Position numbers and translations under genes: made by a program. The notes below the pieces were generated by a model, which searched no databases, was not told the origin of the DNA, and worked only from the letters and a program-made list of their open reading frames with translations. This document shows positions 4,698-16,363 of a DNA stretch of 44,839 nt, piece after piece (positions within the stretch are counted from its first letter, which is position 1; each line of letters begins with the position of its first letter). Source of the stretch: Oscillospiraceae bacterium (lineage in GTDB: Bacteria; Bacillota; Clostridia; Oscillospirales; Oscillospiraceae); contig SVLK01000014.1 in the NCBI GenBank assembly GCA_015067975.1, positions 1-44,839 on the forward strand, in the 5' to 3' direction.

Positions 4698-5702
4698 ATG
4701 AACAAAGGGGATCTATTGACTTCCGCATATGCTGCCGATACAATAAAACCCAAGAAGACAGGAAAAGAGGCGGAATGTGTGGAGAAAAAAGAAGGATTGC
4801 TGCCCATTGTGACGGCTGTTTTGGGCAATGTCTTTTGGGGCTTCAGCTTTTTGTTTACCCGCATTGCGCTGCAGGAAACAACGCCGGAGATTATGCTGGC
4901 ACTTCGGTTCATCATTTCTTTTGCGCTGATGAACGTACCGTTGCTGCTGGGACGGCAAAAAATTGCATTGAAAGGGAAAAAACTGCTGCCATTACTGGGA
5001 CTTGTCGTTTCCGAGCCTATCGTATTTTTTTCGGAAAGCTACGGTATTTTGCACACAAATGCCACATTTGCAGGTGTTATGGTGGCAGTGGCACCTATTT
5101 TCGCTATTGCATTGGCTGCGCTGGTGCTAAAGGAGATTCCCTCCCGCCGTCAACTGCTGTTCTGCCTAATGCCGATCGTGGGTGTGATTATCATGATACT
5201 GGCGGGTAATTCCCTGGGCGTGGTGACGCCTTTGGGTGTGTTGTTTTTGCTGATCAACTGTATTGGCATTGGATTTTACCGCCTGTGCAACCGTTGGGGC
5301 GGGCAGATTTTCACCCCCTTTGAACGCACCTATATGGTACTGCTTTCCTGCACAGTGGTTTTTCCATCCTCGGCGCTGCTGAGTGTAAATGGAGATGTGG
5401 GGCTGATTTTATCGGCGGCGGTGAATCCGCGGGTGATTCTGCCGGTGCTGGCGCTTTGTCTGCTGTGTTCTATCGGTGCTAATATGTTGGTCAACTATGC
5501 TGCGGGAAAGATGAGTGTGGCTAAAATTTCGGCGTTTGCATCGCTGATTACGCTGTGCTCTACTTTTGCAGGAGTGATCCTGCTGGGTGAGCCGTTCAAC
5601 GCGATGTCGCTGCTGGGAACAGCGTTGATCATTATTGGCGTCTGGCAGGTATCACGGCCGGAGCTGACGGCGGAAAAGAATAAAAAACAAGGGAACGGTT
5701 AA
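4698..5702 (+). CDS. EamA/DMT-family transporter
   Basis: This is a ten-span drug/metabolite transporter (EamA, RhaT-like fold). The repeats start near GNVFWGFSFLFTRIAL and near GVLFLLINCIGIGFYRL. The C-terminus holds the classic pattern of a helix with a conserved Gly-Glu (LLGEPF) and a final helix ending IGVWQVSR. Family members export amino acids, nucleosides or other small metabolites; the substrate is not readable here. Location next to ilvBNCD makes branched-chain amino acids a reasonable guess. The start is uncertain: the ATG at 4698 gives 334 aa, while a GTG at 4779 (307 aa, preceded by AGAGGCGG) matches usual family length better. The gene ends inside a bidirectional terminator. Confidence 0.88.
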   Translation: MNKGDLLTSAYAADTIKPKKTGKEAECVEKKEGLLPIVTAVLGNVFWGFSFLFTRIALQETTPEIMLALRFIISFALMNVPLLLGRQKIALKGKKLLPLLGLVVSEPIVFFSESYGILHTNATFAGVMVAVAPIFAIALAALVLKEIPSRRQLLFCLMPIVGVIIMILAGNSLGVVTPLGVLFLLINCIGIGFYRLCNRWGGQIFTPFERTYMVLLSCTVVFPSSALLSVNGDVGLILSAAVNPRVILPVLALCLLCSIGANMLVNYAAGKMSVAKISAFASLITLCSTFAGVILLGEPFNAMSLLGTALIIIGVWQVSRPELTAEKNKKQGNG

Positions 5703-5717
5703 GTTCCTTTGTTTTTT
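5682..5717. terminator. Bidirectional terminator after the EamA gene
   Basis: Arms 5682-5696 and 5703-5717 (AACAAGGGAAC / GTTCCTTTGTT core) flank a 6-base loop and are bordered by A- and T-runs on both sides. It can stop transcripts from the EamA gene and also any minus-strand transcript from the T-box-like element at 5756-5855. Confidence 0.85.
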
Positions 5718-5755
5718 GCAATTTACGAAAGACATCGGGACAAGAATCCCGGAAA

Positions 5756-5855
5756 GATTCAGATGCGGCTGCGGATATGATCTCCCATCCGCGCTGCCTT
5801 GCACCGACCGGCAGCTCTCTGAAACATCGTGAAGTGACTTTTTTCCTGTCATCGT
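5756..5855 (-). ncRNA. T-box-like stem I, probably a relic or orphan element
   Basis: Read on the minus strand, the segment has the ordered landmarks of T-box stem I: ACGATGA near the 5' side (K-turn), GGAAAAAAGTCA where AGTA is expected, CAGAGAG (AG bulge), a terminal hairpin with arms CTGCC/GGCAG enclosing GGTCGGTGCAA, and finally GCCGCATCTGAAT (3' K-turn strand). The specifier is ambiguous: ATC (Ile) or TCC (Ser) just before GCAGCC. I find no antiterminator motif (AGGGTGGNACCGCG type) downstream. The only following structure is a small CGGGA/TCCCG hairpin and the bidirectional terminator of the convergent EamA gene. No minus-strand gene follows. It is therefore either decayed, displaced by rearrangement, or the leader of an antisense RNA. 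Confidence 0.55.
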
Positions 5856-6100
5856 ATTTGTTCTTTGTTTGTTGTTAGACTAAAAATAACCGAATCAATG
5901 TCGGTTGTCAAAAGGGGATTTTCACTTCGGCGAGATAAAAAGTGCAAATTGTTTCGTAAGAAGAAATAAAACGTGGCGCTTTGGTGGGAGAAAACGAGGA
6001 TGTTTTTCTTCTTCTATGTGAAAAATAACGGCAGAAAGAGAGAGGGGACCTGCGGACTTCGTCACAACATCCAAAATAAAGTGTGGTTTTCATATTTATG
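5856..6100. other. AT-rich non-coding stretch upstream of the ilv promoter
   Basis: About 245 bases with no convincing gene or ribosome-binding site. I see only an imperfect inverted repeat (ACCGAatcaatgTCGGT, about 5891-5906) and purine-rich sequence. It may hold a binding site for a regulator of the ilv promoter, but none is recognisable. Confidence 0.4.
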
Positions 6101-6129
6101 TTGCGATTTACTGTACATGTGGGTATAAT
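6101..6129 (+). promoter_or_regulatory. Promoter of the ilv leader and operon
   Basis: TTGCGA (6101-6106) and a consensus TATAAT (6124-6129) are separated by exactly 17 bases. Transcription would start near 6137, giving a leader of about 430 bases before ilvB that includes a short ORF and an intrinsic terminator. Confidence 0.75.
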
Positions 6130-6190
6130 TGCACTCAAGCAGAATATCTGCCGGTAAATCCGAAAGAAGCGACGCGTCGCGGAGAGTATT

Positions 6191-6310
6191 ATGGTTACGA
6201 TGATGGCTTCCATTTGCATCCTGCTGCCCTACATTATTCTGGCTCTGGTACTGGTCGTACTGGTACGCGGAGAGAATAGTGTGTTTGGTCATGCAAAGGC
6301 GCAGCGGTAA
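6191..6310 (+). CDS. Candidate Ile/Leu/Val-rich leader peptide (39 aa)
   Basis: The ATG at 6191 is preceded by GGAGAG (6181-6186) and opens a 39-codon frame. Residues 8-25 are almost only branched-chain amino acids (14 of 18; 16 of 39 overall: 4 Ile, 6 Leu, 6 Val), followed by a polar tail (RGENSVFGHAKAQR). It lies 54 bases after the predicted transcription start and 46 bases before an intrinsic terminator, upstream of acetolactate synthase. Composition and position resemble the enterobacterial ilv leader peptides that drive ribosome-mediated attenuation. The alternative is an ordinary single-span small membrane protein, since the same run would also make a transmembrane helix. I could not find a convincing competing antiterminator pairing. 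Confidence 0.5.
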   Translation: MVTMMASICILLPYIILALVLVVLVRGENSVFGHAKAQR

Positions 6311-6356
6311 ACAAAGCCGTCGAAAAAACCGGAATACCGGAAAAAGACGAATCACC

Positions 6357-6394
6357 AAAGCCTGTGGCCCGACACAAGGGTTGCAGGCTTTTTT
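6357..6394 (+). terminator. Intrinsic terminator in the ilvB leader (candidate attenuator)
   Basis: The outer stem AAAGCCTG / CAGGCTTT and inner stem CCC / GGG enclose a small loop and are followed by six T. It sits between the ilv promoter and ilvB, so readthrough is needed unless another promoter exists at 6395-6566. A small CCGGaataCCGG hairpin (6329-6340) lies between the short ORF and this terminator. Confidence 0.75.
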
Positions 6395-6566
6395 AGTTTT
6401 CCGAAAGGGGAGAGGATCGTGGAAATCTCCGCCCCCAGCCGCATCAATGGCTTTGAAAATATAATGCGTCTAATATTCTGGAAGTAGCCTGTACCGATGT
6501 CATCGCACTGCAGAAGGGCTTCGGAAAAGTGTAGAATAATCCCCCAGAAAGAAGGAGGAATGTAAT
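6395..6566 (+). other. ilvB 5' leader downstream of the terminator
   Basis: The 172 bases hold a second short translatable frame: GTG at 6419 after AGGGGAGAGG, 22 codons, stop 6485-6487 (begins VEISAPSRING). A different frame then reads 6472-6534 (ends ALQKGFGKV). Both look protein-like but match nothing I know, so they may be fragments of a decayed gene. An imperfect hairpin can form between GAAGTAGCC (6481) and GGCTTC (6517). The AAGGAGGA site of ilvB is at 6551-6558. Confidence 0.4.
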
Positions 6567-8288
6567 TTGAAGATCCGCGCAACGCAGGCCATCTTGGAAT
6601 GCCTGCTGGAGCAGGAAGTGGACACCGTGTTCGGATATCCCGGCGGTACGATCCTGAATGTGTATGATGAACTCTACCGCTATCAGGACAAGATCCACCA
6701 TGTACTTACTGCTCATGAACAAGGAGCCGCCCATGCGGCCGACGGTTACGCCCGTGCTACCGGCAAGGTGGGTGTGTGCTTTGCCACCTCCGGCCCCGGC
6801 GCTACCAATTTGACCACCGGTATCGCTACTGCCTATCTGGACTCGTCTCCTGTGGTGTTTATCACCTGCAACGTGGGCGAAAACCTGCTGGGCAAGGACG
6901 CATTTCAGGAGGTAGACTCTACCGGTATTGCCATGCCGATTACCAAGGCGGCATTTCTGGTGCGCGACGCGCAGTCCATTCCGGATGTGATGCGTCAGGC
7001 CTTTGCTGTAGCAGCCAGCGGTCGGCCCGGTCCTGTGCTCATTGACTTTTTAAAGAATGTAACTGCCCCAACTGAGATGGTGGAGTACGATTTTGTTCCC
7101 TGGCAGGAGAACCGGGGGTGTGACAGTATCCGCCGCCTTAATGCCAGCCACCAGCTGAAAGAGACCCGTGTCAATCAGCAGGATATTGACACGCTGCTGG
7201 ATATGATCGCCGAGGCGAAGAAACCTCTGCTGATTTGCGGCGGCGGTGTGGTCCGCGGCAAAGCCGATACGGAATTCCGCACCTTTGCCGAGAAGATGGA
7301 TGCACCGGTCGCTATTACCGTTATGGGTGGCGGTGGTTTCCCCGGCAGCCATCCGCTGACCACCGGTATGATCGGCATGCACGGCTCACAGGCATCCAAC
7401 GTGGCCTGTGACGAATGTGATCTGCTGATCGCTGTGGGCTGCCGCTTCTCCGACCGCGTGGCGTTGGATCCCAAGACCTTTGCCCAGCAGGCAAAGATTG
7501 TGCAGATCGATATTGATCGCGCAGAGATCGATAAGAACGTGCTGACCGACCATCATATCATCGGCAGCGCCAAGCGCGTCTTACAGCTACTCAACGAAAA
7601 GCTGCCGCAGCACGACCATAGCGAGTGGAAAGAGCACATCCTGCCGTTGCGCGCACATTCTGTAGCGGAGGACAGTGAAAAGCTGACGCCCCAGCAGGTG
7701 CTGGAAGTGATCCGCACACAGGCACAGGATGCTATTGTAGCCACCGATGTAGGCCAGCATCAGATGTGGGCCATCAAGTACCTGCACTTCAGCTACCCCG
7801 GTCAGCTGCTGACTTCCGGTGGATTTGGTACGATGGGCTTCGGACTTGGCGCGGCTATCGGCGCTCAAACGGGCAATGCCGATAAGCGTGTGATTCACGT
7901 CACCGGTGACGGCTGTTTCCGTATGAACTGCCACGAGCTGTGCACTGTGCAGCATTACGGCTTGCCTGTCATCACGGTTGTGTTCAACAACGGTACGCTG
8001 GGCATGGTACGCCAGTGGCAGAACCTGATCTACGGCAAGCGCTTTTCCCAAACCACACTGGACCGTGGTCCTGACTTTGTGAAGTTGGCAGAAGCCTACG
8101 GCCTGCGCGGCTATCGCGTTACTACCCGCGATGAGATGGAAACGGCCTTTGCCGACGCGCTTGCCTGCGGTACCGGCGCTGTTATCGATTGCGTGCTGGA
8201 TATCGACGAGATGGTCCGCCCTATGGTGGCGGCTGGCTCGCAGATCACCCAATTCCTGCTGAAGGAAAAGGAGGGGAGAAGCCTGTGA
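6567..8288 (+). CDS. ilvB: Acetolactate synthase, large (catalytic) subunit
   Basis: The product (573 aa) condenses two pyruvates, or pyruvate and 2-ketobutyrate, in the first common step of valine, leucine and isoleucine synthesis. The catalytic glutamate is E51 in TAHEQGAAHAADGYARATGK. The thiamine-diphosphate motif runs from GDGCFRM to VVFNN near the C-terminus, and a central FAD-type domain carries MGGGGFPGSHP and GCRFSDR. The first codon is TTG, placed 8 bases after AAGGAGGA; the family N-terminus (KIRATQAILECL) begins right there. Its stop overlaps the ilvN start (GTGA). It opens the ilvBNCD operon and follows the leader with the candidate attenuator. Confidence 0.97.
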   Translation: MKIRATQAILECLLEQEVDTVFGYPGGTILNVYDELYRYQDKIHHVLTAHEQGAAHAADGYARATGKVGVCFATSGPGATNLTTGIATAYLDSSPVVFITCNVGENLLGKDAFQEVDSTGIAMPITKAAFLVRDAQSIPDVMRQAFAVAASGRPGPVLIDFLKNVTAPTEMVEYDFVPWQENRGCDSIRRLNASHQLKETRVNQQDIDTLLDMIAEAKKPLLICGGGVVRGKADTEFRTFAEKMDAPVAITVMGGGGFPGSHPLTTGMIGMHGSQASNVACDECDLLIAVGCRFSDRVALDPKTFAQQAKIVQIDIDRAEIDKNVLTDHHIIGSAKRVLQLLNEKLPQHDHSEWKEHILPLRAHSVAEDSEKLTPQQVLEVIRTQAQDAIVATDVGQHQMWAIKYLHFSYPGQLLTSGGFGTMGFGLGAAIGAQTGNADKRVIHVTGDGCFRMNCHELCTVQHYGLPVITVVFNNGTLGMVRQWQNLIYGKRFSQTTLDRGPDFVKLAEAYGLRGYRVTTRDEMETAFADALACGTGAVIDCVLDIDEMVRPMVAAGSQITQFLLKEKEGRSL

Positions 8289-8851
8289 AAAAGGAATTTG
8301 ATTCCCAGAAGAAACTGTATACGCTTTCCCTGTTGGTAGAAGATGTTCCCGGCGTGCTGAGTCAAGTGGCGCGTTTGTTTTCCCGCAAGGGCTACAACAT
8401 CGAGTCCATTGTCTCCGGTGCTACGGACCGCCCCGGCATTACCCGCATTTCCATTGAGATCATTGCCGATGAACTGATGATCGACCAGATCGCTGCCCAG
8501 TGCCGCAAATTGCTGCCGGTGCAGGCGGTGAAGATTCTGGATGAGGAGACCAGTATCCGGCAGGAAAACGCCTTTATCAAGGTGCGTGCTGCCAGCCGTG
8601 CCGAACGCGACGAAGTGCTGCAGTTGGCCAACATTTTCCATGCCAAGGTAATGGACGTGGACAAAGAGGCGCTGACCATCTACGTGTTCGGCAGCCCCGA
8701 TAAGCTGAAAGCGCTGATCCGCATGCTGGAGGATTTCGGCATTATGGAAATTGCCAAAACCGGAACGATTGCTATTGAACGCGGCAGCAATACGATTTAC
8801 GACAATAACAAATTACGGGAGGAATATGATTATGGCAAGAATGTATTATGA
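8285..8851 (+). CDS. ilvN: Acetolactate synthase, small (regulatory) subunit
   Basis: The 188-aa protein has an N-terminal ACT domain ([21 protein letters not shown], about residues 10-90) and a C-terminal domain (about 90-170) as in IlvN/IlvH. It binds valine and adjusts the activity of the large subunit. The start is GTG at 8285, overlapping the ilvB stop by four bases, with GGAGGGG 8 bases upstream, so translation is coupled. Its 3' end overlaps the ilvC start by 20 bases. It is about 20 residues longer than common homologues; the extra length is at the C-terminus and seems to be a by-product of that overlap. Confidence 0.95.
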
Positions 8852-9851
8852 GAAGGACTGCGATCTTGGCAAGCTGGACGGTAAGAAGATCGGTATCATC
8901 GGTTATGGTTCTCAGGGACACGCCCATGCGCTGAACCTGAAGGACTCCGGCTGCGACGTATGTGTTGGTCTGCGCGCCGGCAGCAAAAACTGGGACAAGG
9001 TGCTGGAGGCCGGTTTGAAGGTGGCAACTGTAGCCGATACCGCCAAGTGGGCCGATATCATCATGATCCTCATCAACGATGAGACCCAGGCCGAAGTCTA
9101 TAAGAAGGACATCGCTCCCCATCTGGAAGCCGGCAACGCCCTGATGTTTGCCCACGGCTTCAACATCCACTTCAAGCAGATCGTTCCTCCTGCCGATATC
9201 GATGTGCTGATGATCGCCCCCAAGGGCCCCGGGCATACCGTCCGCTCTCAGTATGTGGCAGGCAAGGGCGTGCCCTGCCTGATCGCTGTAGAGCAGAACG
9301 CCACCGGTAAGGCCTATGATATCGGTCTTGCTTACGCTGCCGGTATCGGCGGAGCCCGCGGCGGCGTCATGGAGACGACCTTCCAGGATGAAACCGAGAC
9401 CGACCTGTTCGGCGAGCAGGCCGTTCTGTGTGGCGGCGTGGTGGAGCTGATGAAGCTGGGCTTCGAGACGCTGGTAGAGGCAGGCTATGCTCCCGAGAAC
9501 GCTTACTTTGAGTGCATCCATGAGATGAAGCTGATCATCGACCTGATCAACAAGGGCGGCGTGGCAATGATGAACTACTCCATTTCCGATACGGCTGAGT
9601 TTGGTGAGTATGTGTCCGGCAGCCGCATCCTGCCCTATGAGGAAACCAAGAAAAACATGAAGGCTGTATTGACCGACATTCAGGACGGCGTGTTTGCCGG
9701 CAAGTGGATTGCCGAGAACAAGAACGGCCGCACGTTCTTCAATGCCAAGCGTGCTCAGCTGGCCAAGCACCAGATGGAAGTGGTGGGCGCTGAGCTGCGC
9801 CGCAACATGCTGTGGGGTGAGGATACCGATCCCGATACTGCGTCTAACTAA
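8832..9851 (+). CDS. ilvC: Ketol-acid reductoisomerase (NADP+)
   Basis: This 339-aa class I enzyme isomerises and reduces acetolactate or acetohydroxybutyrate. The Rossmann motif is [13 protein letters not shown]; the metal site lies in the [20 protein letters not shown] segment and a later E ([10 protein letters not shown]). Several in-frame starts exist; ATG 8832 is 8 bases after GGGAGGA and gives the standard N-terminus (MARMYYEKD), whereas 8826 is too close to that site. It overlaps the end of ilvN and is followed 20 bases later by ilvD. Confidence 0.97.
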
Positions 9852-9871
9852 AAGATAACGGAGGTGCTTCC

Positions 9872-11533
9872 ATGAGAAGCAACGTCATTAAAAGCGGCGT
9901 TCCCGCCGCCCCTAACCGCTCGCTGCTGTATGCGCTGGGTTATACCAAAGAGGAACTGGAGCGACCGATGATCGGCGTGGTCTGCTCTTATAACGAGATC
10001 GTTCCCGGGCACATGAATCTGGATAAGATCGCCGAGGCGGTCAAGGCCGGAATTCGTGCGGCCGGAGGCACACCGGTGGAGTTTCCTGCCATCGCCGTGT
10101 GCGACGGTATTGCAATGGGTCATGTGGGCATGAAGTATTCTCTGGTGACCCGCGACCTGATTGCTGATTCTACCGAAGCTATGGCTATGGCCCACCAGTT
10201 TGACGGTCTGGTGATGATTCCCAATTGCGATAAGAACGTGCCGGGTCTGCTGATGGCAGCGGCCCGCGTCAACGTGCCTGCCATTTTCGTTTCCGGCGGA
10301 CCTATGCTCGCCGGTACGCTGAGCAATGGACGCCGCACCTGCCTGAGCCATATGTTTGAGGCGGTGGGATCCCACTATGCCGGCAAGTTGGACGATGCCG
10401 GACTGGAGGACTACGAGGATAACGCCTGTCCCACCTGCGGTTCCTGCTCCGGCATGTATACCGCAAACTCCATGAACTGCCTCACCGAGGCCATTGGCAT
10501 GGCCCTGCAGGGCAACGGCACGATTCCCGCCGTGATGTCCGCCCGTATCCGTCTGGCCAAGCACGCCGGCATGAAAATCATGGAACTGGTGGAAAAGAAT
10601 ATCCGTCCCCGTGATATTATGACCGCTGCTGCTTTCCACAATGCTGAAACAGTAGATATGGCGCTGGGCTGCTCCACCAATACCATGCTGCACCTGCCAG
10701 CGATCGCCCACGAGTGCGGCATCGAACTGAACTTCGATATGGCCAACGAGATCAGCGATAATACGCCCAACCTATGCCATCTGGCCCCTGCCGGTGACAC
10801 CTACATGGAAGATCTGGATCGCGCCGGCGGTGTGCACGCCGTGATGGCGCAGCTGCTGCAGGCCGGTAAGCTGGATGGCAGCGTCCAGACCTGCACTGGT
10901 AAAACGCTGGCGGAAAATCTGGAAGGCGTGGTCAATCGCAACGAAGACGTGATCCGTCCCATGTCCAACCCCTACAGCAAGACCGGCGGCATCGCTGTTT
11001 TGAAGGGCAATCTGGCTCCCGACGGCTGCGTGGTCAAGCAGGCGGCCGTGGCGGAAGAGATGATGCGCCATACCGGCCCTGCCCGCGTGTTTGACAGCGA
11101 GGATGACGCCATTGCCGCCATCTATGCCGGAAAGATCGTGGCCGGTGATGTGGTGGTGATTCGCTACGAAGGCCCGAAAGGTGGACCCGGCATGCGCGAG
11201 ATGCTCAACCCCACCTCTGCCATCGCCGGTATGGGCTTGGATAAGGATGTGGCCCTCATTACCGACGGCCGCTTCTCCGGTGCTACCCGCGGTGCATCCA
11301 TCGGACATGTGTCCCCGGAGGCTGCTTCCGGAGGCAACATTGCGCTGGTGGAAGAGGGAGACCTCATCAGTATCGACATTCCCGCCCATACTATCGAGCT
11401 GCAGGTCAGCGATGAAGAGCTGGCACGCCGCCGTGCGGCATGGGTCTGCCCCGAACCGAAGATCAAAACAGGCTATCTGGCCCGCTATGCCCGATTGGTC
11501 TCTTCTGCAGACCGCGGCGCCGTGCTGGACTGA
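9872..11533 (+). CDS. ilvD: Dihydroxy-acid dehydratase
   Basis: The 553-aa iron-sulfur enzyme dehydrates dihydroxy acids to the 2-keto acids that precede valine and isoleucine. Cluster cysteines are seen in NCDKNVPG and in [24 protein letters not shown]; the C-terminal domain has [16 protein letters not shown] lies 8 bases before the ATG. Length is normal. With ilvB, ilvN and ilvC it completes the common pathway; the final transaminase (ilvE) and the leu genes are not in this window. Confidence 0.97.
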
Positions 11534-16079: not shown

Positions 16080-16155
16080 GGTGGAGACTGCTGGACTCGA
16101 ACCAGTGACCTCCTGCGTGTGAAGCAGGCGCTCTAACCAGCTGAGCTAAGCCTCC
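16079..16155 (-). tRNA. tRNA-Val (CAC)
   Basis: It folds as a cloverleaf on the minus strand: acceptor GGAGGCT / AGTCTCC, D-arm AGCTCAGCTGGTTAGAGC, anticodon arm CCTGC-TTCACAC-GCAGG with anticodon CAC, and T-loop GGTTCGAGTCC. The 3' CCA is encoded. It is the last gene of a three-tRNA operon. Confidence 0.97.
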
Positions 16156-16157
16156 AT

Positions 16158-16232
16158 TGGTGACCCGTACGGGACTCGAACCCATGTTACAGCCGTGAAA
16201 GGGCCGTGTCTTAACCACTTGACCAACGGGCC
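16158..16232 (-). tRNA. tRNA-Glu (TTC)
   Basis: Cloverleaf on the minus strand: acceptor GGCCCGT / ACGGGTC, anticodon arm CGGCC-CTTTCAC-GGCTG with anticodon TTC, T-loop GGTTCGAGTCC and encoded CCA. Only two bases separate it from tRNA-Val. Confidence 0.97.
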
Positions 16233-16253
16233 GAAGATTTTACCCCTGAAGGG

Positions 16254-16285
16254 CACCGGCGAGATGTTTTCACATCTCGCCGGTG
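16254..16285 (-). other. Stable hairpin between tRNA-Met and tRNA-Glu
   Basis: A 13-bp perfect stem (CACCGGCGAGATG / CATCTCGCCGGTG) with a 6-base loop lies in the 54-base spacer. It has no T-run on either side, so it is more likely a processing element of the tRNA precursor than a terminator. Confidence 0.6.
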
Positions 16286-16286
16286 A

Positions 16287-16363
16287 TGGTAGCGGCGACT
16301 GGATTCGAACCGGTGACACTGCGGGTATGAACCGCATGCTCTAGCCAACTGAGCTACGCCGCC
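16287..16363 (-). tRNA. tRNA-Met (CAT), elongator type
   Basis: Cloverleaf on the minus strand: acceptor GGCGGCG / CGCCGCT, D-arm AGCTCAGTTGGCTAGAGC, anticodon arm TGCGG-TTCATAC-CCGCA with anticodon CAT, T-loop GGTTCGAATCC and encoded CCA. It lacks the GGG/CCC anticodon-stem pairs of initiator tRNA. A lysidine-modified tRNA-Ile (CAT) cannot be fully excluded. Confidence 0.93.

Follow-up and report, generated by a model that had tools for sequence, protein, structure and literature searches.

INTRODUCTION

The systems closest to the one described here are leader-peptide attenuators in other Bacillota. Rli60, the ilvD leader of Listeria monocytogenes, provides ribosome-mediated attenuation of ilv genes (PMC5864092). 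Rli60 resembles the present leader by design, in that both occur in Bacillota, encode a peptide rich in branched-chain residues, and can form a four-segment antiterminator/terminator switch, which for Rli60 was tested by mutation and reporter (PMC5864092). It differs in having a 13-residue peptide before ilvD together with CodY, whereas the present peptide has 39 residues and precedes ilvB in a genus for which a search of 32 genomes found no CodY. The ilvD attenuator of Staphylococcus aureus likewise places a Leu/Ile-rich leader peptide and a terminator before ilv genes; the antiterminator proposed for it binds the terminator U tract (PMC5794164), whereas the one proposed here uses the inner 5' arm and loop. 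Upstream open reading frames (uORFs) before ilvB have been described in Corynebacterium, and the ilvB-OMG motif has been suggested to include one (PMC10272879, PMC11109978). The Corynebacterium ilvB-II uORF and ilvB-OMG share with our locus a branched-chain-rich uORF before ilvB with a terminator and an antiterminator, but belong to other phyla (PMC10272879). Finally, the replacement of T-boxes by a his leader in bacilli was proposed in 2010 (PMC2965389).

Here we analyze the region upstream of ilvB in a 44,839-nt stretch of DNA from an Oscillospiraceae bacterium, the whole of which we call the window. T-box leaders read tRNA charge by binding tRNA directly and act through a terminator; they need no leader ORF, unlike the leader-peptide design considered here. 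Within the order, T-box leaders (RF00230) precede the same genes, and none is matched on the operon strand before the window ilvB. The mechanism class is not new, because ilv leader-peptide attenuators have been published for Listeria and S. aureus, and the design is lineage-specific; none of the matches listed in the open-licence literature describes such a leader in Oscillospiraceae. For the same reason, an initial annotation of this DNA took too narrow a view in its premise that T-boxes or CodY are the normal regulators in Bacillota.

RESULTS AND DISCUSSION

Organization of the leader

All features of the leader and operon lie on the plus strand, and their coordinates are those of the window. 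A promoter scan places TTGCGA-17-TATAAT at 6101-6129, and visual inspection shows a TTGCG-like -35 and TATAAT ahead of the G028, G015, G135, and Oscillibacter valericigenes An411 leaders as well. The sequence then offers a ribosome binding site, GGAGAG (6181-6186), and an ORF of 39 codons (6191-6310, with the ATG at 6191 and the stop codon at 6308-6310), which has homologous ORFs in relatives and encodes MVTMMASICILLPYIILALVLVVLVRGENSVFGHAKAQR. Codons 8 to 25 (6212-6265) specify Ile, Leu, or Val at 14 of 18 positions. An intrinsic terminator of 14 pairs (6357-6391), which with its T run extends to 6395, follows and is found by terminator scan, covariation, and folding. The first intact gene past it is ilvB (6567-8288, TTG start), encoding the large subunit of acetolactate synthase, and the remainder of the operon (8285-11533) comprises ilvN (8285-8851), the ilvC ORF (8751-9851), and ilvD (9872-11533). 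The promoter with its consensus -10, the ORF with its branched-chain run, and the terminator ahead of acetolactate synthase had been recognized in the initial annotation and are borne out here.

The codon run exceeds what chance would give. No short ORF in 2000 dinucleotide shuffles of 5703-6566 was as rich, the maximum being 12 of 18 (attained in 5 of the 2000), and the leader ORF ranks highest in its Ile/Leu/Val run among the 481 short ORFs of the window. RNA of 6191-6397 folds with a z of -4.5 relative to shuffles. When the ORF RNA was compared with recodings of the same peptide, it was more stable than resampled codons in 14 of 16 clade representatives (mean z, -1.6; the exceptions are G042 and G288) and more stable than permuted codons in 15 of 16 (mean z, -2.1). 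For the window ORF, 1 of 200 recodings was equally stable.

Antiterminator and terminator

We gathered 27 leaders of this design from six families of the order (f1, f7, f10, f13, f19, and f20), most of them from draft assemblies, and assigned their P1 arms (see below) and terminators by hand from folds and motifs. Across these relatives the Ile/Leu/Val run and the terminator are kept while the peptide changes, and the antiterminator stays complementary with clade-specific changes, the pattern that the initial annotation had proposed to look for by alignment. In the terminator, 9 of 12 pairs show changes on both sides (0/500 shuffles).

The initial annotation had reported no good antiterminator pairing, which does not hold. 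Pairing tests and folding identify a segment at 6280-6292 that makes 12 pairs with 6364-6376, the inner 5' arm and loop of the terminator, through UGUGUU and GGUCAU with GACACA and GUGGCC; in folds, a short extension joins AAAGGC with GCCU. The outer arm, AAAGCCTG, was considered as the main partner of the antiterminator and rejected, the inner arm and loop being preferred. In the close clade the segment, AGTGTGTTTGGTCATGC, is nearly invariant, and over 10 sequences 92.5% of antiterminator cells are paired, a value that drops to 27 to 42% when the partner is slid by 1 to 3 columns. Since the 5' side hardly varies, covariation is scarce here: one pair is changed on both sides (in G690), which is not significant (131/500 shuffles). 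Clades with different sequences provide stronger evidence. In six leaders of a second clade, all 64 of 64 antiterminator cells are paired (0/500 shuffles for cells), 5 of them with two-sided changes (116/500 shuffles for pairs). In G372 and G304 the antiterminator pairs in a different register.

Although antiterminator sequences diverge from clade to clade, they remain matched to the terminators of their own leaders, as judged from one representative set of 16. A segment made up of the second ORF half plus 15 nt binds its own terminator with a mean of -19.4 kcal/mol and those of the others with -16.0 kcal/mol, a preference equaled in 0 of 100,000 permutations (13 of 100,000 for the whole leader), with the own terminator ranked first in only 2 of the 16 rows. 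The fit of the own terminator is poor in G069, G153, and G184, and these three, like G183 and G288, have a best whole-leader duplex that is either weak or located at another site.

A predicted hairpin across the regulatory codons

A second structure, P1, involves the regulatory codons themselves. RNAalifold predicts a stem between Ile-Ile-Leu codons and AGAAUA, which can be extended to ACAUUAUUCU with AGAAUAGUGU; in this form 97% of cells are paired, 3 pairs are changed on both sides, and 4 of 500 shuffles do as well. In the second clade, 97.9% of cells are paired (11/500 shuffles). Folding and covariation place the 5' arm in the window at 6231-6240, inside Ile/Leu codons, and the 3' arm at 6273-6282. 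Over the 27 leaders, with arms assigned by hand, the 5' arm begins at codons 12 to 16, most often at codon 14 (16 leaders). By itself, P1 shares just 3 nt with the antiterminator. The rest of the antiterminator segment is joined to earlier codons by an outer helix, P1b (5' side, 6205-6225; partner, 6282-6303), which is supported by a permutation test over the 16 representatives (0/100,000). Together, P1 and P1b over the regulatory codons can, according to these folding models, sequester the antiterminator segment.

A model for the switch

We consider it very probable that ilvBNCD is controlled by ribosome-mediated transcription attenuation, with the leader sensing the charging of Ile, Leu, and Val tRNAs, a reading that rests on comparative sequence analysis and RNA folding. 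A ribosome would enter the 39-codon ORF behind RNA polymerase. When branched-chain tRNAs are charged, it would clear the codon run, upon which P1/P1b may re-form behind it and hold 6280-6292; with the antiterminator held, the terminator at 6357-6391 would form and transcription would stop. When these tRNAs are short, the ribosome would stall within codons 8 to 25 and keep P1/P1b open, leaving free the antiterminator, which lies about 4 codons downstream. The free segment could then base-pair with the inner 5' arm and loop while the 3' arm of the terminator has yet to be transcribed, which would allow polymerase to read through. In a leader that is not translated, the default would be termination. 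We infer that the ORF is translated, that ribosomes stall in it, that the timing suits the switch, and that starvation elicits a response; the view of the initial annotation that stalling may decide readthrough gains support from the conserved parts in relatives.

The computation itself yields the parts, shows that they are conserved and covary, and predicts a change of pairing once a ribosome is parked on the codons. To represent the stall, the RNA was ended in the terminator loop and everything up to 12 nt past the last codon of the run was covered, 12 nt being the footprint that we assumed for the ribosome. With a ribosome parked at this last codon, the extent to which leader sequence pairs with the terminator 5' arm and loop rises in the window from 0.15 to 0.74. 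The same pairing rises in 21 of the 27 leaders (12 of the 16 representatives) and does not rise in the other 6 of the 27. RNA of 6278-6379 folds into the antiterminator and that of 6278-6397 into the terminator, which at full length is the more stable structure even with the codons covered. The antiterminator must therefore form first, during transcription, for the switch to operate by kinetic priority.

With respect to the off-state, the distance from the stop codon to the antiterminator varies among leaders, and 3 of the 27 (G288, G326, and G360) have an ORF that ends short of the conserved 3' segment and yet keep this segment, although a sequencing error is possible in these. This variation, including stops upstream of the antiterminator, suggests that resetting by P1 is a likelier off-state than masking by a terminating ribosome. 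A more elaborate version would hold that the leaders of the order form one homologous family of structured attenuators, swapped with T-boxes more than once, and that the near-invariant NSVFGHA codons of the window clade add a nascent-chain input; we regard this combination as improbable.

A lost second acetolactate synthase

The region between terminator and ilvB has a history that the initial annotation missed. In G015 and G006 the gene order is leader, ilvB'-ilvN'-ilvB-ilvN-ilvC-ilvD, with a homologous leader before ilvB'. In G028 (L031, 4942-5500) the leader is intact, and after it an internal deletion has joined ilvB', of which the 5' end persists, to a 3' portion of ilvN'. In the window, sequence comparison shows no more than a frameshifted remnant of the ilvN' 3' end, at about 6413-6534 (left edge approximate); this remnant belongs to the small subunit of the second acetolactate synthase. 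Taken as a decay series, from the intact pair through the deletion to the scar, these loci indicate that in the window and in G028 the leader has outlived the genes that it presumably served at the outset, an example of a regulator that persists beyond the genes to which it was once attached.

This history raises the question of whether the attenuator is a mere relic of ilvB'-ilvN', irrelevant to a window ilvB that has its own promoter. The roughly 170 nt, with the ilvN' scar, that separate terminator and ilvB would suit such a reading. However, promoter, ORF, P1, antiterminator, and terminator are all intact in the window, a simple promoter scan found no plus-strand site between the terminator and ilvB, and the leader stands immediately before ilvB itself in An411, G690, and G621, so that we consider a relic very unlikely.

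We find it less likely still that the ORF product is a small membrane protein acting in its own right, next to which terminator and hairpins would be incidental, as the initial annotation had allowed. The leader peptide is indeed hydrophobic, and members of the close clade share its C-terminal NSVFGHA; Pfam and NCBIfam have no match to the peptide, a silence that counts neither way. Our searches, however, lent no support to conservation away from ilvB: every leader in the sequences examined precedes ilvB or ilvB'. Beyond this set there are weak matches in G017 and G012 and 7 of the 11 exact matches to the leader pattern, which fall in other phyla. The third codon positions of the conserved segment are invariant in most of the close clade, and the shortened ORFs of G288, G326, and G360, unless due to sequencing error, end before a segment that is nevertheless retained. 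The C termini of other clades differ and yet complement the terminator.

Leaders and T-boxes in the order

The distribution of leaders and T-boxes was assessed in 100 further ilvB-upstream regions, 96 of which extend to the upstream region of the first gene. A T-box was matched by Rfam on the operon strand at the gathering score in 55 of the 96, and by its motif only in 4 more; 19 have a leader of the present kind, 4 of which (L139 and L208-L210) were judged by ORF and terminator alone and stand outside the 27 folded; 18 have neither, among them L131, L169, L171, L205-L207, and L211-L213. That a T-box or another tRNA- or ligand-binding RNA controls the window operon, with an accidental ORF, is hardly credible, since, common as T-boxes are in these regions, no Rfam family matches the operon strand of the window leader (a T-box before the window ilvB was rejected for want of an RF00230 match there), none of a set of 19 leader loci has an ilv-type Rfam match at E values up to 1, and leader and T-box occur together in 0 of the 96.

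A search with model R1 matched 9 of 394 genomes of the order at an E value of 0.01 or better, under stricter filters with which weak matches are lost. Five of the matches precede ilvB or ilvB', and those in G633, G749, G240, and G550 have no ilv gene within the roughly 3 kb available around the match. Within the genus, 6 of 32 genomes match R1, four of them strongly, and a close ilvB (at least 80% identity) is present in only 4 of the 32. CodY was found in 0 of these 32 genomes, 14 of which are at least 90% complete, in a search that matched 2 of 14 controls, Bacillus subtilis and Lactococcus lactis.

In a tree of 53 IlvB proteins, the nine-leader clade of the window is nested within T-box rows, and the distribution of the leader label requires three changes, of which at least two are imposed by well-supported branches. 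Of the 28 T-box labels in this tree, 24 come from Rfam matches and the other four (L083, L084, L086, and L089) from a T-box motif; leader_L011, with its very long branch, perhaps represents a different paralogue. These results suggest that in this order of gut Clostridia branched-chain synthesis is controlled by ribosome-sensing attenuators where close relatives use T-boxes. Leaders and the T-boxes of relatives precede the same genes, which would allow a comparison of two ways to read tRNA charge. The claim is testable in O. valericigenes An411, a named strain with the leader right before ilvB.

Elsewhere in the window genome there are 12 T-box matches, six of them above the cut-off. A T-box remnant lies on the minus strand of the window at 5700-5861 (26.8 bits, far below threshold). 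In G028 and G015, full T-boxes are located near the leaders (L060 and L061), on the opposite strand and before a divergent gene. The window also carries three consecutive tRNA genes on the minus strand, at 16082-16363.
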